NCBI RefSeq assembly: GCF_011927905.1
Contig: NZ_JAATJL010000001.1
Location: 2,790,001-2,854,000 of the forward strand
Direction of reading: 5' to 3'
From: Arthrobacter pigmenti
GTDB taxonomy: Bacteria > Actinomycetota > Actinomycetes > Actinomycetales > Micrococcaceae
DNA: 64,000 nucleotides
Part shown: one piece after another, positions 2,398 through 47,907 of the stretch
Numbering within the stretch: position 1 is the stretch's first letter
How the letters are laid out: each line of letters starts with the position of its first letter
Position numbers and translations under genes: made by a program
Notes under the pieces: model-generated
The model's database searches: none
Seen by the model: only the letters and a program-made list of their open reading frames with translations
Told to the model about the DNA's origin: nothing

Positions 2398-3258
2398 GTG
2401 TTCGATTCCCTACAGCTCAAGACGTTCCTTGCCGTCGCTGAGACCCAGAGCTTCACCGGTGCGGCGACCCAACTGGGCCTCAGTCAGCCGACCGTCAGCC
2501 AGCATGTGCGCAAACTGGAGAAGGCAGCCGGACGGATGCTGATTGCGCGCGACACCCGTGAGGTTCGCCTGACCGACAACGGCGATGCCATGGCAGGTTT
2601 CGCACGGACCATCCTCGCCGCGCAGGAACAGGCACTCAGCTATTTCTCCGGCTCCGCAATGCGCGGCCGGCTGCGATTCGGTGTGGCCGATGACCTCGCC
2701 ATCACGCAACTCCCCCGCATCCTCCGCCACTTCCGGCAGCTCTATCCACAGATCAACCTCGAACTCACCGTCTCCCAGAGCCCTCCCCTCCTGCGCAGGC
2801 TGCGGGCGGGGCAGCTCGACCTTATTTTCATCAAGTACATGACCGGCACGGGCGAAGGCACCCTTGTCCAGCGCGATCGTCTCGTCTGGGCGGGCCACGG
2901 AAAAACAACGCTCGACGACGGCGCCCCGGTCCCCCTGATCGCCTACCAGGCGCCGAGCCTGAGCCGGCAGATGGCGATCGATGCGCTCGAGCGGGCGGGC
3001 AGGACCTGGCGGATCACCTGCAACACCCGTGAAATCAACGGGGTCCTCGCTGCTGCGCGGGCGGGAATCGGGCTGGCGGTCTTTCCGCAATCACTCATCC
3101 CCGAGGACCTGGTGCAGGTCACCAACCGGTTTGACCTGCCGACCCTCGGCGACGTCGACTTCACGCTGCTCAGCAACCCGCTGGCTAACCAGGAACTGGT
3201 CGAGGCGCTGAGCTCGGCGATCCTCGGCCGGGCGCTGCGAAAGGCACCGGACGCGTAG
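2398..3258 (+). CDS. LysR family transcriptional regulator
   Basis: A 286-residue protein with the LysR layout: an N-terminal winged helix-turn-helix ([19 protein letters not shown] through [18 protein letters not shown], residues about 5-45), a linker helix, then a two-lobed effector-binding domain beginning near [13 protein letters not shown]. Start is GTG at 2398 with GAAGGAC upstream. The divergent position suggests that it controls the MFS exporter at 900-2258 in response to a small molecule, which is the common arrangement; the inducer cannot be read from the sequence. Confidence 0.9.
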
Positions 3259-3320
3259 GCGGATTGGCGTGCTCAACCCCACATGGCAGCACGGGAGGGG
3301 CAAGCGTAGACTGGACGCTG

Positions 3321-3749
3321 ATGAATCGCACAATGTTCAAGTCCAAAATCCACCGCGCAACGGTCACCCACGCAGATCTGCACTACGTGGGTTCAGTAAC
3401 CGTTGACCTGGACCTGCTTGAGGCAGCGGATATCCTGCCCGGCGAGATGGTCTCGATTGTGGACGTCACCAACGGCGCGCGGCTGGAAACGTACACCATC
3501 GCGGGTGAGCGCGGCTCGGGCGTCCTTGGCATCAACGGGCCGGCAGCCCATCTGGTCCATCAGGGTGACACGGTCATCCTGATCACCTATGCGGCAATGA
3601 CCACCGAAGAGGCACACGCGTACACACCCACGATCGTGCACGTGGATTCGAACAACCGGATCATCGAACTCGGTAATGATCCCGCTGAGGGCCTCACGGA
3701 GGGCCTTGAACGTCCACCGTTCGCGCTGAACAACGCAGCGCTTCTCTAG
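3321..3749 (+). CDS. panD: aspartate 1-decarboxylase (proenzyme)
   Basis: Makes beta-alanine from L-aspartate for pantothenate and coenzyme A synthesis. The N-terminus [20 protein letters not shown], the [14 protein letters not shown] segment with the G-S self-cleavage site that generates the pyruvoyl group (about residue 25), and the later [12 protein letters not shown] and VILITYA segments are all typical of PanD. Length is 142 residues. The frame extends upstream, but ATG 3321 matches the family N-terminus. It appears monocistronic and ends before a strong hairpin. No other pan genes are nearby. Confidence 0.95.
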
Positions 3750-3770
3750 CTCCCGCAACCACCTTCCTGC

Positions 3771-3805
3771 ACAAGCGGGTCCGCGCATACTGCGGACTCG
3801 CTTGT
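3771..3805 (+). terminator. hairpin after panD
   Basis: Arms at 3771-3784 (ACAAGCGGGTCCGC) and 3792-3805 pair at 13 of 14 positions around a 7-nt loop, 21 nt after the panD stop. It is followed by a short T-rich stretch (CTTCGTTAT), consistent with a rho-independent terminator. Confidence 0.75.
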
Positions 3806-3971
3806 CTTCGTTATACCTCCCGCCGAACGCTTCCCAGGCGCGCCAACCACGTCCTAGCGAATTGTCCACTCAAGGCATATGGTCAGGAAGACAAGTATGC
3901 TTCCGGTCCCAGCGACTGCATCAGTCCCAGGGCCGCAGGCTGGCAAGGCTCGATGTGGAGGCGAGGTACGT

Positions 3972-5309
3972 ATGCCGGGAAATCGCGGGACCCGCAAGGG
4001 TATGAGGCAGGAAAAGAACCGGACCAGGAGGCGGCCGGGTGCGGTTGCGGCGGCGTCGCTCGGGCTCGCTTCGCTCCTGCTGAGCGGATGCGGACCAGCG
4101 AATTCCGGTGTCCCGACGCTCACCTGGTATATCAATCCCGACGCCGGCGGGCAGGCTGCGATTGCCCAGCTCTGCACCGAGCAGGCCAATGGCGAATACC
4201 GGATCGAAACGTCCCTCCTTCCGAACGACGCCGCAGCGCAGCGCGAACAACTGGCGCGTAGGCTCGCGGCCGGCGATGACTCGCTGGACATCATGAGCAT
4301 CGACCCGCCGTTCGTACCCGAGCTGGCAACGTTCCTTGCGCCCGTTCCCGAGGAAACGGCTCAGGCCACCACGGAGAACACCCTCGAGGGCGCACTGCAG
4401 GGTGCGATGTACGAAGACGAATTGGTCACCGTACCGTTCTGGGCGAACACGCAGATCCTCTGGTACCGGGAGTCCGTTGCCGAGGAAGCAGGACTGGACA
4501 TGTCGCAGCCTGTGACCTGGGATCAGCTGATGGAAGTTGCCGCCGCACAGGATGTGGAATTGGGTGTGCAGGGCTCGCAGGCGGAGTCAATGACGGTCTG
4601 GATCAACTCGTTGATCGAATCGGCTGGCGGCACCATCCTCGAGAACCCTGAAGCGGAGGCTGATGAGATCGAGCTTGGCCTGGTGAGCGACGCCGGCCGC
4701 GAGGCGGCACGCATCATCGGAACCATTGGCGACGAGGGCCTTGGCGGCCCAGGCCTCGCGACGTCCACGGAGAATACGTCGCTGACCCTCTTCCAGGGCG
4801 AGAGCGGATCCTTCATGGTCAACTATCCGTTCGTCTGGCCTGCAACGCAGGGAGCTGTGGAGGACGGCACATTGGACCAGTCGGTCCTGGACGACATCGG
4901 TTGGGCCCTGTATCCGCGGGTCTCCGAGGATACGGAGACAGCCCCGCCGCTGGGTGGGATCAACCTCGGGGTCGGCGCGGGAAGTGACAACCCCGAACTG
5001 GCGTACCAGGCCATCGAGTGCATCGTGCAGCCCGAGAACCAGACGGAGTACTTCCTCACCAACGGAAACCCGCCCTCGAACTCGGAAGCATACGAGGATC
5101 CGCGGATTGAAGAACAGTTCCCCATGGCTGACACCATCCGCGAATCGCTCGAAATCGCAGCACCCCGTCCGCAGACCCCCTTCTACAACGAGATCTCCAG
5201 CGGCCTGCAGCAAACCTGGACTCCGCCCGATGAGGTGGATCCGGAAACCACACCGGAGGAATCGGCGGAGTTCATCACCGCTGTGCTGAGAGGGGAGAGA
5301 CTGCTGTGA
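3972..5309 (+). CDS. lpqY: trehalose ABC transporter substrate-binding lipoprotein LpqY
   Basis: A lipoprotein of about 445 residues: basic N-terminus with RRRPGAV, a hydrophobic stretch, and lipobox LLSGC. The mature part follows mycobacterial LpqY closely in recalled motifs: LARRLAAGDDSLDIMSID, QILWYRES, a WINSLIESAGGTIL segment, MVNYPFVW, GGINLGVG, and PMADTIRESLEIAAPRPQTP near the C-terminus followed by DEVDPETT. LpqY-SugABC imports trehalose. ATG 3972 has GGAGGCGAGG upstream; an ATG at 4002 is an alternative. The stop overlaps the GTG of the next permease by 4 bp, so the genes are one operon. Confidence 0.88.
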   Translation: MPGNRGTRKGMRQEKNRTRRRPGAVAAASLGLASLLLSGCGPANSGVPTLTWYINPDAGGQAAIAQLCTEQANGEYRIETSLLPNDAAAQREQLARRLAAGDDSLDIMSIDPPFVPELATFLAPVPEETAQATTENTLEGALQGAMYEDELVTVPFWANTQILWYRESVAEEAGLDMSQPVTWDQLMEVAAAQDVELGVQGSQAESMTVWINSLIESAGGTILENPEAEADEIELGLVSDAGREAARIIGTIGDEGLGGPGLATSTENTSLTLFQGESGSFMVNYPFVWPATQGAVEDGTLDQSVLDDIGWALYPRVSEDTETAPPLGGINLGVGAGSDNPELAYQAIECIVQPENQTEYFLTNGNPPSNSEAYEDPRIEEQFPMADTIRESLEIAAPRPQTPFYNEISSGLQQTWTPPDEVDPETTPEESAEFITAVLRGERLL

Positions 5310-44904: not shown

Positions 44905-44970
44905 AGAAACTGCCCGCACGTTCAGGGCTGCCGGTTCGAAGCGGCAGTTCTGAACCTACGGGCAGTTTCT
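44905..44970. terminator. long hairpin after the nucleoside hydrolase gene
   Basis: Arms 44905-44925 (AGAAACTGCCCGCACGTTCAG) and 44950-44970 pair at 18 of 21 positions; the three mismatches are adjacent. The centre has a smaller CTGCC/GGCAG stem. From here to the mobile element at 45165 I see no gene. Confidence 0.7.
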
Positions 44971-45158: not shown

Positions 45159-45164
45159 ACTAGC
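45159..45164. other. target-site duplication, left copy
   Basis: ACTAGC, repeated exactly at 47902-47907. It contains CTAG, in agreement with the NCTAGN target reported for Bordetella IS481. On the minus strand it supplies the TAG stop of the transposase (bases 45160-45162). Confidence 0.9.
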
Positions 45165-46146
45165 TGTACTGACCCGGGACGTTAATCAATCGAGTGAAGG
45201 GCGGCTGCTTGTTGCATGCGCTGTGAGGGCGATGTTGGTTGTAGTGATGCAACCACCTCTCGAGCGCATCCCGGCGTTCCTGCTCTGAGCTGTAGCAGCG
45301 GGCGTAGGCCCAACCGTCTGCCATGGTCCGGTGGAAGCGTTCCACCTTGCCATTCGTCTGTGGCCGGTAAGGCCGCGTCCGCTTAGGACGAATGGCGAGG
45401 GCTTCACAGGAGTCGCGCCACAGGTACGAGCGGTACGCGCCGCCGTTGTCCGACAGGACACGCTCGACCGTCACACCGCGCTGTGCGAACCACGCCACCG
45501 CCCTGCGCAGGACGCCGACCGAGGTAATTGCGCGCTCATCGTCATGAACCTCGGTGTACGCGACGCGCGAGTGGTCGTCGAGCACGGTGTGAACGAAGGC
45601 GTACCCGAGCTTGGGGTTTCCTTGTTTGTTCTTTGGCCTGTCTGGAGTCGCGGAGCGGTTCTTCCCCCCTTGTCGGCGGCCGACGTAGCGCCAACCGCCG
45701 CCGTCAGGGATGTTCCCGAGCTTCTTGACATCAACGTGCACGAGCGAGCCGGGGTGGTCGTGCTCATATCGTCGGATCGGCTCGCCCGTGGCGCGGTCGA
45801 TGTAGATGAGTCTATTGAGCCGCGCGGTGCGCAGAATGCGGTGCACCGTCGACGGGGCAATGCCGAGCCGAGCGGCGAGTTGAACGGGGCCTTCGCGCAG
45901 GCGCATCCGCAGGCTCACGCAGCGCTTGGTCACCGCCTTGCTCGTCTTGTTCGGCGAGATTCTGGGTCGCGATGAGCGATCGAGCATGGGTTCTCCCGCG
46001 AGATACCTTCCGACCCATCTCTTCACGGTGGGCCATGAAACTTGAAAGCGGGCTGCGACCTCGCTGATGGGCCATCCGCCCTCGACGACGAGGCGGGCGA
46101 CTTTGAGCCGGTGGCGCGGAGTCAAGGCCGCGTTGGCATGTGACAT
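45160..46146 (-). CDS. IS481 family transposase
   Basis: A 328-residue DDE transposase. N-terminal HTH (LTPRHRLKVARLVVEGGWPI, SEVAARFQVSWPTVKRWVGRY) and a second HTH near LAARLGIAPSTVHRIL, then an rve integrase core with Asp139 (LVHVDVKKLG), Asp233 (LSDNGGAY) and Glu269 (TNGKVERFH), spacing D-35-E. All catalytic residues are present and the frame is intact. The last residues NVPGQY are encoded within the terminal repeat and the stop TAG lies in the target duplication. Probably still active. Confidence 0.95.
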   Translation of the reverse strand: MSHANAALTPRHRLKVARLVVEGGWPISEVAARFQVSWPTVKRWVGRYLAGEPMLDRSSRPRISPNKTSKAVTKRCVSLRMRLREGPVQLAARLGIAPSTVHRILRTARLNRLIYIDRATGEPIRRYEHDHPGSLVHVDVKKLGNIPDGGGWRYVGRRQGGKNRSATPDRPKNKQGNPKLGYAFVHTVLDDHSRVAYTEVHDDERAITSVGVLRRAVAWFAQRGVTVERVLSDNGGAYRSYLWRDSCEALAIRPKRTRPYRPQTNGKVERFHRTMADGWAYARCYSSEQERRDALERWLHHYNQHRPHSACNKQPPFTRLINVPGQYS

Positions 46147-46164
46147 CTGTGCTCCTAGGTTGAA

Positions 46165-46193
46165 GTGGGTGGCCCCGGACCGGGGCCACCCAC
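46165..46193. terminator. 14-bp perfect hairpin between oxidoreductase and transposase
   Basis: GTGGGTGGCCCCGG (46165-46178) and its exact complement (46180-46193) with a single central base. It lies 19 bp upstream of the transposase start and 24 bp after the oxidoreductase stop, both on the minus strand, so it may isolate transposase from cargo transcription. Confidence 0.75.
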
Positions 46194-46217
46194 AGTTGAT
46201 CCGGTCATCTGATCGCT

Positions 46218-47087
46218 TCAGAGGAGGGGGACGAGCTCCTCACGGATCCAGCTCCGCAGTGGGGTCGGGGTGGTGCTGACCATCGAGCGTTCCTGCTCGG
46301 GCACGAAGCCGTCTCGCAGCCCGGCGGACATCCCCAGCACCGCGTCCGCCATGGCGGACGGCATACCCGCCTGGAGGTACTGCTCGCGCATCTGCTCGTC
46401 GGCGATCCGCTCGACGCGCACCTCTCGACCAAGCTCTTCCGTGAGGGTCTTCGCAACTTGGGTCCACGACAGGTCCTCGGGGCCGTGGACGGCCTGGACG
46501 CGGCGTCCGCTCCACTCGCCGCTCAGCAATGTGAGAGCGGCAACTTCTGCGATGTCCCGCGGAGCGACCCAGCTCATCGGAGCGTCGACGGGCAGCACAG
46601 TCTGGAGCAGCCCGGCCTTCACCGACTCCGCCTCGAACAGCAGGTTGGTGAAGAAGTAGCCGCACCGCAGATGCGTGAGATCCGCGCCGCAATTGTCGAG
46701 GGCGACTTCCGTCTCCGCAAGCCCGTCGATCTCACCCGCACCGTACCGCTTCTCCGCACCGACGCTGCTCTGGAAAACAACCCGTCCGATCCGGTTCGCC
46801 TCAACTGCGGCGACGATGGACTCCGTCGCACGGCGATAGTCAGCCATCGGATCAGAAGACTCGGCGGGCGGGTCGACCCAGTAGACGGCGTCGACGCCGG
46901 CAGTGGCGGAAGCGACCTGTCTCGGCTCGCGCGAGTCCATCGTCACCAGCTCGACGTGCTCGGCGAGGGAGGCGGGGATGTTCTCTGGGTGGCGGGTGAG
47001 CAGCATCGGCCTGACGCCTGCCCGGATGAGCATCCGGGTCAGATGCTGGCCGACATTACCTTGAGGTGTCGTGACGGCGATTTTCAT
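46218..47087 (-). CDS. NmrA-like NAD(P)-binding oxidoreductase (transposon cargo)
   Basis: A 289-residue atypical short-chain dehydrogenase. The Rossmann motif is IAVTTPQGNVGQHLTRMLI, then VDAVYWVDPPAES; SSVGAEKRYG stands where the catalytic Ser segment is and no YxxxK is seen, typical of NmrA/QorB-like proteins that bind NAD(P)H or act on quinones. C-terminal ILGMSAGLRDGFVPEQERSM is family-like. ATG 47087 has AAGGGA upstream. It lies inside the IS481 element, divergent from the WYL regulator that probably controls it across 84 bp. Confidence 0.85.
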   Translation of the reverse strand: MKIAVTTPQGNVGQHLTRMLIRAGVRPMLLTRHPENIPASLAEHVELVTMDSREPRQVASATAGVDAVYWVDPPAESSDPMADYRRATESIVAAVEANRIGRVVFQSSVGAEKRYGAGEIDGLAETEVALDNCGADLTHLRCGYFFTNLLFEAESVKAGLLQTVLPVDAPMSWVAPRDIAEVAALTLLSGEWSGRRVQAVHGPEDLSWTQVAKTLTEELGREVRVERIADEQMREQYLQAGMPSAMADAVLGMSAGLRDGFVPEQERSMVSTTPTPLRSWIREELVPLL

Positions 47088-47171
47088 GGAGTTCCCTTCT
47101 TTCCGTTCGTGATTCCACGCTAGAAGCAAATGCGGCCCCATACTGGCCGCATCTTGGGCGATCATGGATCT

Positions 47172-47906
47172 ATGGACTCGCCATCGACACGGTCACTGGA
47201 GTTACTGGCGCTTCTCCAGCCAGGGCGGGAGTGGACCGCCCACGACCTCGCAGTCCGCCTGCAGGTTAGCGAACGCACCGTGCGCCGGGACGCGATGCGT
47301 CTTCGCCGCATGGGTTACGACGTCGACTCTCGCCCGGGCCCAGGTGCTGTCTACGCACTGCGGCCGAGCATGAAAATCCCGCCGCTACTGCTCAGCGCGG
47401 ACGAAGTCTCAACGATCATCACGAGCCTGCTGGTCCTCGAAGCGTGGCAACCCGACGACACCACAGCCGCAACCGCGCGCACAAAGCTCGAACAGGTGCT
47501 GCCTCGGGGCCTGCAGCGGCGCGCCGGAGCGGTGGCGCTGTCCACACAGGTCCTACGCGAAGCTCCTGCGTCCGTGGACTGGCAGCTCGTCGGCACGATC
47601 GCCGACTCCGTAGCAACAGGTGCGCGCCTCGCCTTCGACTACACGGACCAGCACGGCCGCTATACGCGCCGAACAGTCGAGCCGTATCGACATCTCCTGC
47701 GGCGGCAGCACTGGTACCTCATCGCCTATGACCTCGACCGCGACGACTGGCGTCTCTTTCGATTCGACCGGATGCAAGCCTCCACAACCTTGCCCGGGCC
47801 ACATGAGCGTCGCGACTTCCCCTGGGATTCCATTGAGGACTGGCTCACAAGCGACTTCGGCGCGAGCGACGCACGCTCAACTAATGTCTCCGGTCAGTAC
47901 AACTAG
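47172..47906 (+). CDS. WYL-domain transcriptional regulator, YafY type (transposon cargo)
   Basis: A 244-residue regulator: HTH (AHDLAVRLQVSERTVRRDAMRLRRMGYDVDSRPG, residues about 24-58) and a WYL domain with YRHLLRRQHWYLIAYDLDRDDWRLFRFDRM. ATG 47172 is preferred to an upstream in-frame start because the HTH begins soon after. The last residues NVSGQY lie in the right terminal repeat and the stop TAG (47904-47906) lies in the target duplication, mirroring the transposase. It likely controls the divergent oxidoreductase gene. Confidence 0.88.
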   Translation: MDSPSTRSLELLALLQPGREWTAHDLAVRLQVSERTVRRDAMRLRRMGYDVDSRPGPGAVYALRPSMKIPPLLLSADEVSTIITSLLVLEAWQPDDTTAATARTKLEQVLPRGLQRRAGAVALSTQVLREAPASVDWQLVGTIADSVATGARLAFDYTDQHGRYTRRTVEPYRHLLRRQHWYLIAYDLDRDDWRLFRFDRMQASTTLPGPHERRDFPWDSIEDWLTSDFGASDARSTNVSGQYN

Positions 47907-47907
47907 C
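47902..47907. other. target-site duplication, right copy
   Basis: ACTAGC, identical to 45159-45164. On the plus strand it supplies the TAG stop of the WYL regulator. Confidence 0.9.

Follow-up and report, generated by a model that had tools for sequence, protein, structure and literature searches.

The gene for a passenger regulator of an IS481-family element in Arthrobacter pigmenti ends in the duplicated target site

The target of IS481 of Bordetella has been given as NCTAGN (PMC3279416). In ISLxc2 and ISLxx4, two members of the IS481 family from Leifsonia xyli, an NCTAGN site is duplicated and the stop codon of the transposase lies within this host site; ISLxc2 is 1105 bp long and no passenger is mentioned for it in the available part of the paper (PMC2516522). 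The IS481-family element TnRErm46 of Rhodococcus equi also duplicates NCTAGN, has its transposase TAG in the target and carries passengers, and the host gene parB is likewise stopped by the target; according to the available part of its description, however, the distal passenger gene, which is hypothetical, ends at a TGA inside the repeat and not in the target (PMC6794481). ISArsp12, an IS481 element on the Arthrobacter plasmid pA2H1, is flanked by a CCTAGA duplication and has a regulator and a second gene as passengers (PMC6305408, available part); its ArsR regulator and permease are encoded in the same direction as the transposase, and there is no outward passenger (PGAP annotation, L148). 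The repeats of IS481 are stated to begin with 5'-TG in PMC10045372, the available text of which contains nothing on stops in targets. IS5564 was set aside as a comparison, because its cmx and transposase genes run in the same direction and it thus has no bearing on the matter. The present study concerns a stretch of 64,000 nucleotides of Arthrobacter pigmenti (contig NZ_JAATJL010000001.1, positions 2,790,001 to 2,854,000), below called the window, which holds an IS481-family element with two passenger genes. With ISLxc2, ISLxx4 and TnRErm46 it has the NCTAGN duplication and the transposase stop inside the target in common, with TnRErm46 also the presence of passengers, and with ISArsp12 the class of repeat and the cargo of a regulator and a second gene. 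It differs in that an outward passenger gene, encoding a WYL regulator, takes its stop codon from the duplicated target as well. No report of a passenger gene with its stop in the target was found among the results listed in searches of the open-licence PMC literature, the nearest there being TnRErm46; this half of the arrangement looks new, whereas the transposase half is known already (ISLxc2/ISLxx4, PMC2516522; TnRErm46, PMC6794481).

The element measures 2737 bp (45165-47901 of the window) and is bracketed by exact copies of ACTAGC, which fits the 6-bp NCTAGN duplication of the IS481 family (Table 1). Its ends, TGTACTGACCCGGGACGTTA and TGTACTGACCGGAGACATTA, are identical in 17 of their 20 bases and in 16 of the first 19, and both open with TGTACTGACC, in keeping with the rule that IS481 terminal inverted repeats begin with 5'-TG. 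The transposase gene leaves the element through the left repeat and the WYL gene through the right one. Both proteins end in NV-x-GQY plus one residue, the codon of which is made up of the last A of the repeat and two bases of the target; the TAG that follows lies wholly within the target, for the transposase as in elements of the ISLxc2 kind. The length, the repeats, the duplication, the two stops and the common tail had all been claimed in an earlier, sequence-only reading of the window and were confirmed on recheck. Its assignment to the IS481 family held too, as the transposase, the reading frame of which is intact, matches NF033577 over residues 12-319 with 329.8 bits (cut-off 224). D139, D233 and E269 are its predicted catalytic residues. 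D233 and E269 are separated by 35 residues, which is the typical distance between the last D and the E in this family. The open reading frame (ORF) of the regulator opens at 47130, and relatives suggest a start at 47172. Pfam recognizes an HTH and a WYL domain in it and no WCX domain, unlike in the WYL groups A and B discussed below.

Table 1. Features of the element and its flanking target copies, in window coordinates.
Feature	Position	Strand	Remarks
Left target duplication ACTAGC	45159-45164		CTA is the transposase stop TAG on the - strand, 45160-45162
Left terminal inverted repeat TGTACTGACCCGGGACGTTA	45165-45184		Doubles as coding DNA for the C-terminal tail of the transposase
IS481-family transposase, 328 amino acids, C-terminus ...NVPGQYS*	45160-46146	-	NCBIfam NF033577
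Passenger NmrA-like NAD(P)-binding oxidoreductase, 289 amino acids	46218-47087	-	Pfam NAD_binding_10 and NmrA
Divergent intergenic region, 84 bp	47088-47171		Presumed promoters and operator; length counted from the WYL start at 47172
Passenger HTH_11-WYL regulator, 244 amino acids from the likely start, C-terminus ...NVSGQYN*	47172-47906	+	Pfam WYL and HTH_11
Right terminal inverted repeat (reverse complement TGTACTGACCGGAGACATTA)	47882-47901		Doubles as coding DNA for the C-terminal tail of the regulator
Right target duplication ACTAGC	47902-47907		Provides the WYL stop TAG, 47904-47906

Taken alone, the terminal repeats are only modestly beyond chance. Among the 97,729 pairs of identical 6-mers that lie 1.5-5 kb apart within the window, the ACTAGC pair has the best inverted match (16/19), and the runner-up reaches 15/19. 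Because the repeats by themselves barely beat chance, the case for an element was decided by conservation, i.e. by the repeat and the NCTAGN-type duplication in relatives and by the empty site of a sister element. The survey included 144 sequences, namely 80 genome-contig loci (the best 80 of 333 that encode a related transposase), 60 stretches from other genomes, three plasmid loci and the window; loci are designated by L numbers. Both ends were found for 121 elements, whereas 27 transposase places were dropped as an end was not found, and removal of 18 duplicates left 103 distinct insertions. The plasmid loci L253-L256 and the loci L257-L260 stand outside these 103. An exact 6-bp duplication was present in 72 of the 103, with CTAG as its core in 66, TTAG in four and CTAC in two. 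The codon beyond the right end, at which the transposase stops in the orientation of the survey, was TAG in 93 insertions, and that beyond the left end TAG or TAA in 95. Ninety-three insertions are passenger-sized (>1.5 kb). In the ten short ones, among which is L231, a decayed copy of the window's kind, the transposase match does not exceed 74% identity; this division is not clean, as the passenger-sized L219, L237 and L209 have matches of 64-74%. In L083/L220 and L260 the trio of genes was found again, with an IS481 repeat at the end where the regulator lies, and NmrA-like homologues adjoin WYL genes in L083, L118, L119, L120, L258 and L260.

A sister element in the Dietzia plasmid pI (L149) has the same layout, and its regulator is also read through the repeat to the target TAG. 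It differs from the window's element in that its WYL regulator has a WCX domain and a RidA-type enzyme replaces the NmrA-like protein beside the IS481 transposase. The unoccupied site, with a single TCTAGC, is present in the Dietzia kunjamensis plasmids pDK313-79 and pDK2035-61, with 797/801 and 792/800 identities to the joined flanks of L149. This implies that the whole unit, including its passengers, was inserted with a 6-bp duplication. The comparison with an uninserted site that had been proposed for the window was thereby obtained for the sister element, but not for the window locus itself, where no empty site came to light in a search with each flank of 38 genomes of the genus, among them that of the window, and in a reading of eight of the loci. 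This is because the genes that flank the element are not neighbours in the relatives read: parts of the flanks occur separately, about 145 kb apart in genome G292, and the intergenic DNA of the locus is not conserved in these loci. The presence of an IS481-family passenger element consisting of a transposase, an NmrA-like oxidoreductase and a WYL regulator is confirmed by these data.

An outward ORF of at least 100 amino acids near or through the distal end was found in 73 of the 103 insertions, in 30 clusters. Pfam scans of one or two members from 29 of these clusters, all but that of L205, gave 16 lineages of transcription regulators (46 insertions) and 13 clusters without a Pfam match. Seven of the 16 regulator lineages, represented by 16 of the 46 insertions, are read through to the target in at least one copy. 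These are the HTH_11-WYL regulator of the window, an HxlR protein (L005, L007, L009 and L183, as well as L015, which is without the left target), WYL-WCX group A (L149, L186, L187), WYL-WCX group B (L078, L079, L197), an AraC/DJ-1 protein (L195, L081), a MarR protein (L222) and a short protein limited to the N-terminal HTH of a WYL-type regulator (L063). Use of the target stop by a passenger, which had been called unusual, is therefore indeed so but not unique. All 16 read-through insertions use the one frame that is closed by the target, and 15 of them end at a TAG or TAA in the target; the exception is L015, in which the left target has been lost and the ORF continues. By lineage, the target-closed frame is used in 7/7 of those with read-through versus 1/9 of those with interior stops only (Fisher one-sided p = 0.0007, in a test that treats lineages as independent, which they may not wholly be since some share distant homology). 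Counted by insertion, 5/30 with an interior stop are in this frame. ORFs entering host DNA in other frames gave no Pfam match in five representatives (L191, L200, L232, L237, L014). One cluster (L026, L233; 113 amino acids, no Pfam match) with its end in the target, in the target-closed frame, was left out of the count; a MerR gene lies opposite it. The ratio of nonsynonymous to synonymous substitution (dN/dS) was 0.12-0.38 in 10 of 11 regulator pairs and 0.75, on very few changes, in L007/L005. The passenger regulators thus look maintained, with the reservation that close pairs give weak dN/dS estimates.

Copies within one lineage differ at the stop. In WYL group A a TGA is present in L190, L046 and L256 (a Gordonia plasmid copy), as against CGA in L149, L186 and L187 and CGG in L255. 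Here the loss of the stop looks derived, because the more distant L046 (75% identical) has TGA as well. In the window lineage the decayed copy L231 has TGA at the position of the window's TCA, and in L260 and in L259, which occupies the same place as L220 and L083, the WYL stop is a TAA that lies on the inner border of the repeat. The two other copies of the element, L259 and L260, and the decayed copy L231 thus keep a WYL stop of their own. At L118 and L258, which have no transposase match, the WYL stop lies 6 and 7 residues past the last conserved motif; in L231, L118, L258, L259 and L260 together the distance is 5-7 residues, and the window's tail is 14. Read-through of the window's WYL gene looks recent, its own stop having been lost, rather than an ancestral design. 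The broader claim that all relatives of the window's WYL regulator stop 5-8 residues past this motif was rejected: in L119 and L120, chromosomal relatives at a greater distance, the tails are 15 and 14 residues long, close to that of the window, which weakens a simple argument from length. In WYL group B the junctions are shorter in read-through copies than in the other copies, which suggests that the stop was lost at a deletion or capture junction.

The following mechanism is proposed. The transposase, the NmrA-like oxidoreductase and the divergent WYL regulator would move as one unit that duplicates a 6-bp NCTAGN target. The palindromic CTAG places an outward TAG after each end of the element, in one frame that is fixed relative to the 20-bp repeat, and the transposase normally uses this TAG as its stop. 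The sequence-only reading held that the choice of target closes both outward frames; a TAG is indeed supplied on both sides, but for only one of the three frames. An outward passenger in this frame would gain a guaranteed backstop. If its own stop were lost, by mutation or at a junction, it would acquire a short tail encoded by the repeat and end in the target at each new site. Passengers in the other two frames would be without such safety and so would keep their own stop. Such a loss would have occurred in the WYL gene of the window copy, which ends in the target. That the target TAG makes loss of a passenger's stop harmless in one frame is in our judgement probable. Comparison of the sequences establishes the anatomy, the duplications, the empty site of the sister element, the frame bias and the stop differences within lineages, and a backstop in the target would be the best-supported reason why the loss is tolerated. 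The tailed regulator may well be made and functional and control the oxidoreductase; such control is suggested because the two genes are divergent, also in loci without a transposase (L118, L119, L120, L258). On the whole the earlier interpretation is supported and the observation on which it was built is confirmed.

Several findings weigh against the backstop. Both CTAC duplications leave the transposase frame open. Within the window lineage read-through occurs in one copy only, and 30/46 regulator insertions keep an interior stop, including 14/17 of WYL group B, which indicates that the use of the target stop by passengers is optional. There are only seven read-through lineages, and these are in part distantly homologous, with about 30-33% identity between WYL groups A and B. 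Finally, the left target codon is kept in 15/16 read-through copies and in 80/87 of the others; as there is no difference, its integrity was rejected as a sign of constraint.

Instead of being a by-product, the repeat-encoded tail NV-x-GQY-x might itself be selected, as a C-terminal peptide by which transposase and regulator bind, for example, a partner shared by both or the termini of the element. The same tail is found on unrelated regulators (HxlR, WYL, AraC, MarR) and has persisted between L078 and L079, which are 59% identical. However, at distal ends the repeat shows much the same conservation in the whole set of 93 passenger-sized elements, and in most of these no gene reads through it, so that constraint on the DNA alone explains the common tail, which need not have a selected function. 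Together with the sister copies that lack the tail, this makes its selection improbable. It is equally hard to credit that the regulator stops decayed neutrally, each by itself, and that the agreement in frame is an accident of a small sample. The lineages are seven only, the chance of the frame is one in three each time, and the window case is a one-base change relative to the decayed copy L231. Against this, seven of seven lineages in one frame has p = 0.0005 if the three frames are equally likely, the comparison with interior-stop-only lineages gives the p = 0.0007 mentioned above, and the regulator ORFs stay open with the low dN/dS of 10 of the 11 pairs. That the WYL and NmrA genes belong to the ordinary gene content of the host, with the repeats a chance pair around a plain insertion sequence, is very improbable, for although WYL-NmrA pairs occur in loci without a transposase match (L118, L119, L120, L258) and the repeat match in the window barely exceeds chance, this is already contradicted by the relatives, in which the three genes recur with the IS481 repeat, 93/103 insertions are passenger-sized and the unoccupied state of the sister element is seen.

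Host genes can also end in the target, and they keep their stop because CTAG carries TAG on both strands. In L255, from plasmid pDK313-83 of Dietzia kunjamensis, a single CTAG provides the stop of two genes on opposite strands, one for a host regulator and the other the WYL gene of the element (gene spans 2600-3004 and 3001-4005), and the second copy of CTAG closes the transposase. For the 103 insertions, an ORF of at least 80 codons ends in the target TAG on 56/182 scored flank strands, compared with 105/619 for CTAG sites elsewhere in these loci (odds ratio 2.2, Fisher p = 9e-5); this enrichment counts ORFs and not annotation, and the flanks are not fully independent. By the same scoring, no host ORF of at least 80 codons is closed by the target at the window's own insertion. 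It is possible, though we consider it rather doubtful, that targeting of CTAG acts as a portable terminator for any outward gene at either end of the element.

Some further observations were made on the surveyed loci. In L041, L233 (L023) and L045 the right target lacks the first T of CTAG (GCAGCG, TCAGGG and TCAGTG), which removes the transposase stop; the left copy keeps CTAG in L041 and L233, and the contig of L045 is without the left end. Passengers are mostly a regulator with a small enzyme or transporter (modules in L007, L149, L195, L063, L147 and L148). The sets in relatives include HxlR with a TfoX_N protein, WYL with a RidA or VOC protein, ArsR with a permease, AraC with an alcohol dehydrogenase and a SnoaL-like protein, and a WYL-type HTH protein with DUF5655. 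A 2615-bp element of the size of ISArsp12, with the same ends and an ACTAGC duplication, was found in L061, the contig of which is labelled Vibrio cholerae 35D; as the relatives of this element in the set are actinobacterial, the contig is likely contaminated or mislabelled.

In the window's genome no further copy of the element was found at the DNA level, the second match being only 29 bp, so that it is present once. A search of plasmids gave no match to the window's WYL protein at 1e-40 and no record covering 80% of the whole element. To the left of the element, after a nucleoside hydrolase gene, lies a 33-nucleotide inverted repeat without a spacer (44905-44970). Similar sequences recur many times in this genome and in genomes of the same genus, and it looks like a small dispersed hairpin repeat.

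The backstop would tie the choice of target site by a transposable element to the protein ends of its own gene and of its cargo. Since one of the three frames is always closed, it would provide a simple rule as to which cargo genes can do without a stop of their own, and it would account for the odd C-terminal tails common to unrelated regulators on actinobacterial IS481 elements. If CTAG were indeed a portable terminator, it would decide in which frames passengers are able to lose their stop and would spare host genes that are stopped by the target, and the last residue of a cargo regulator (S, T, N or I) would be rewritten at each jump.

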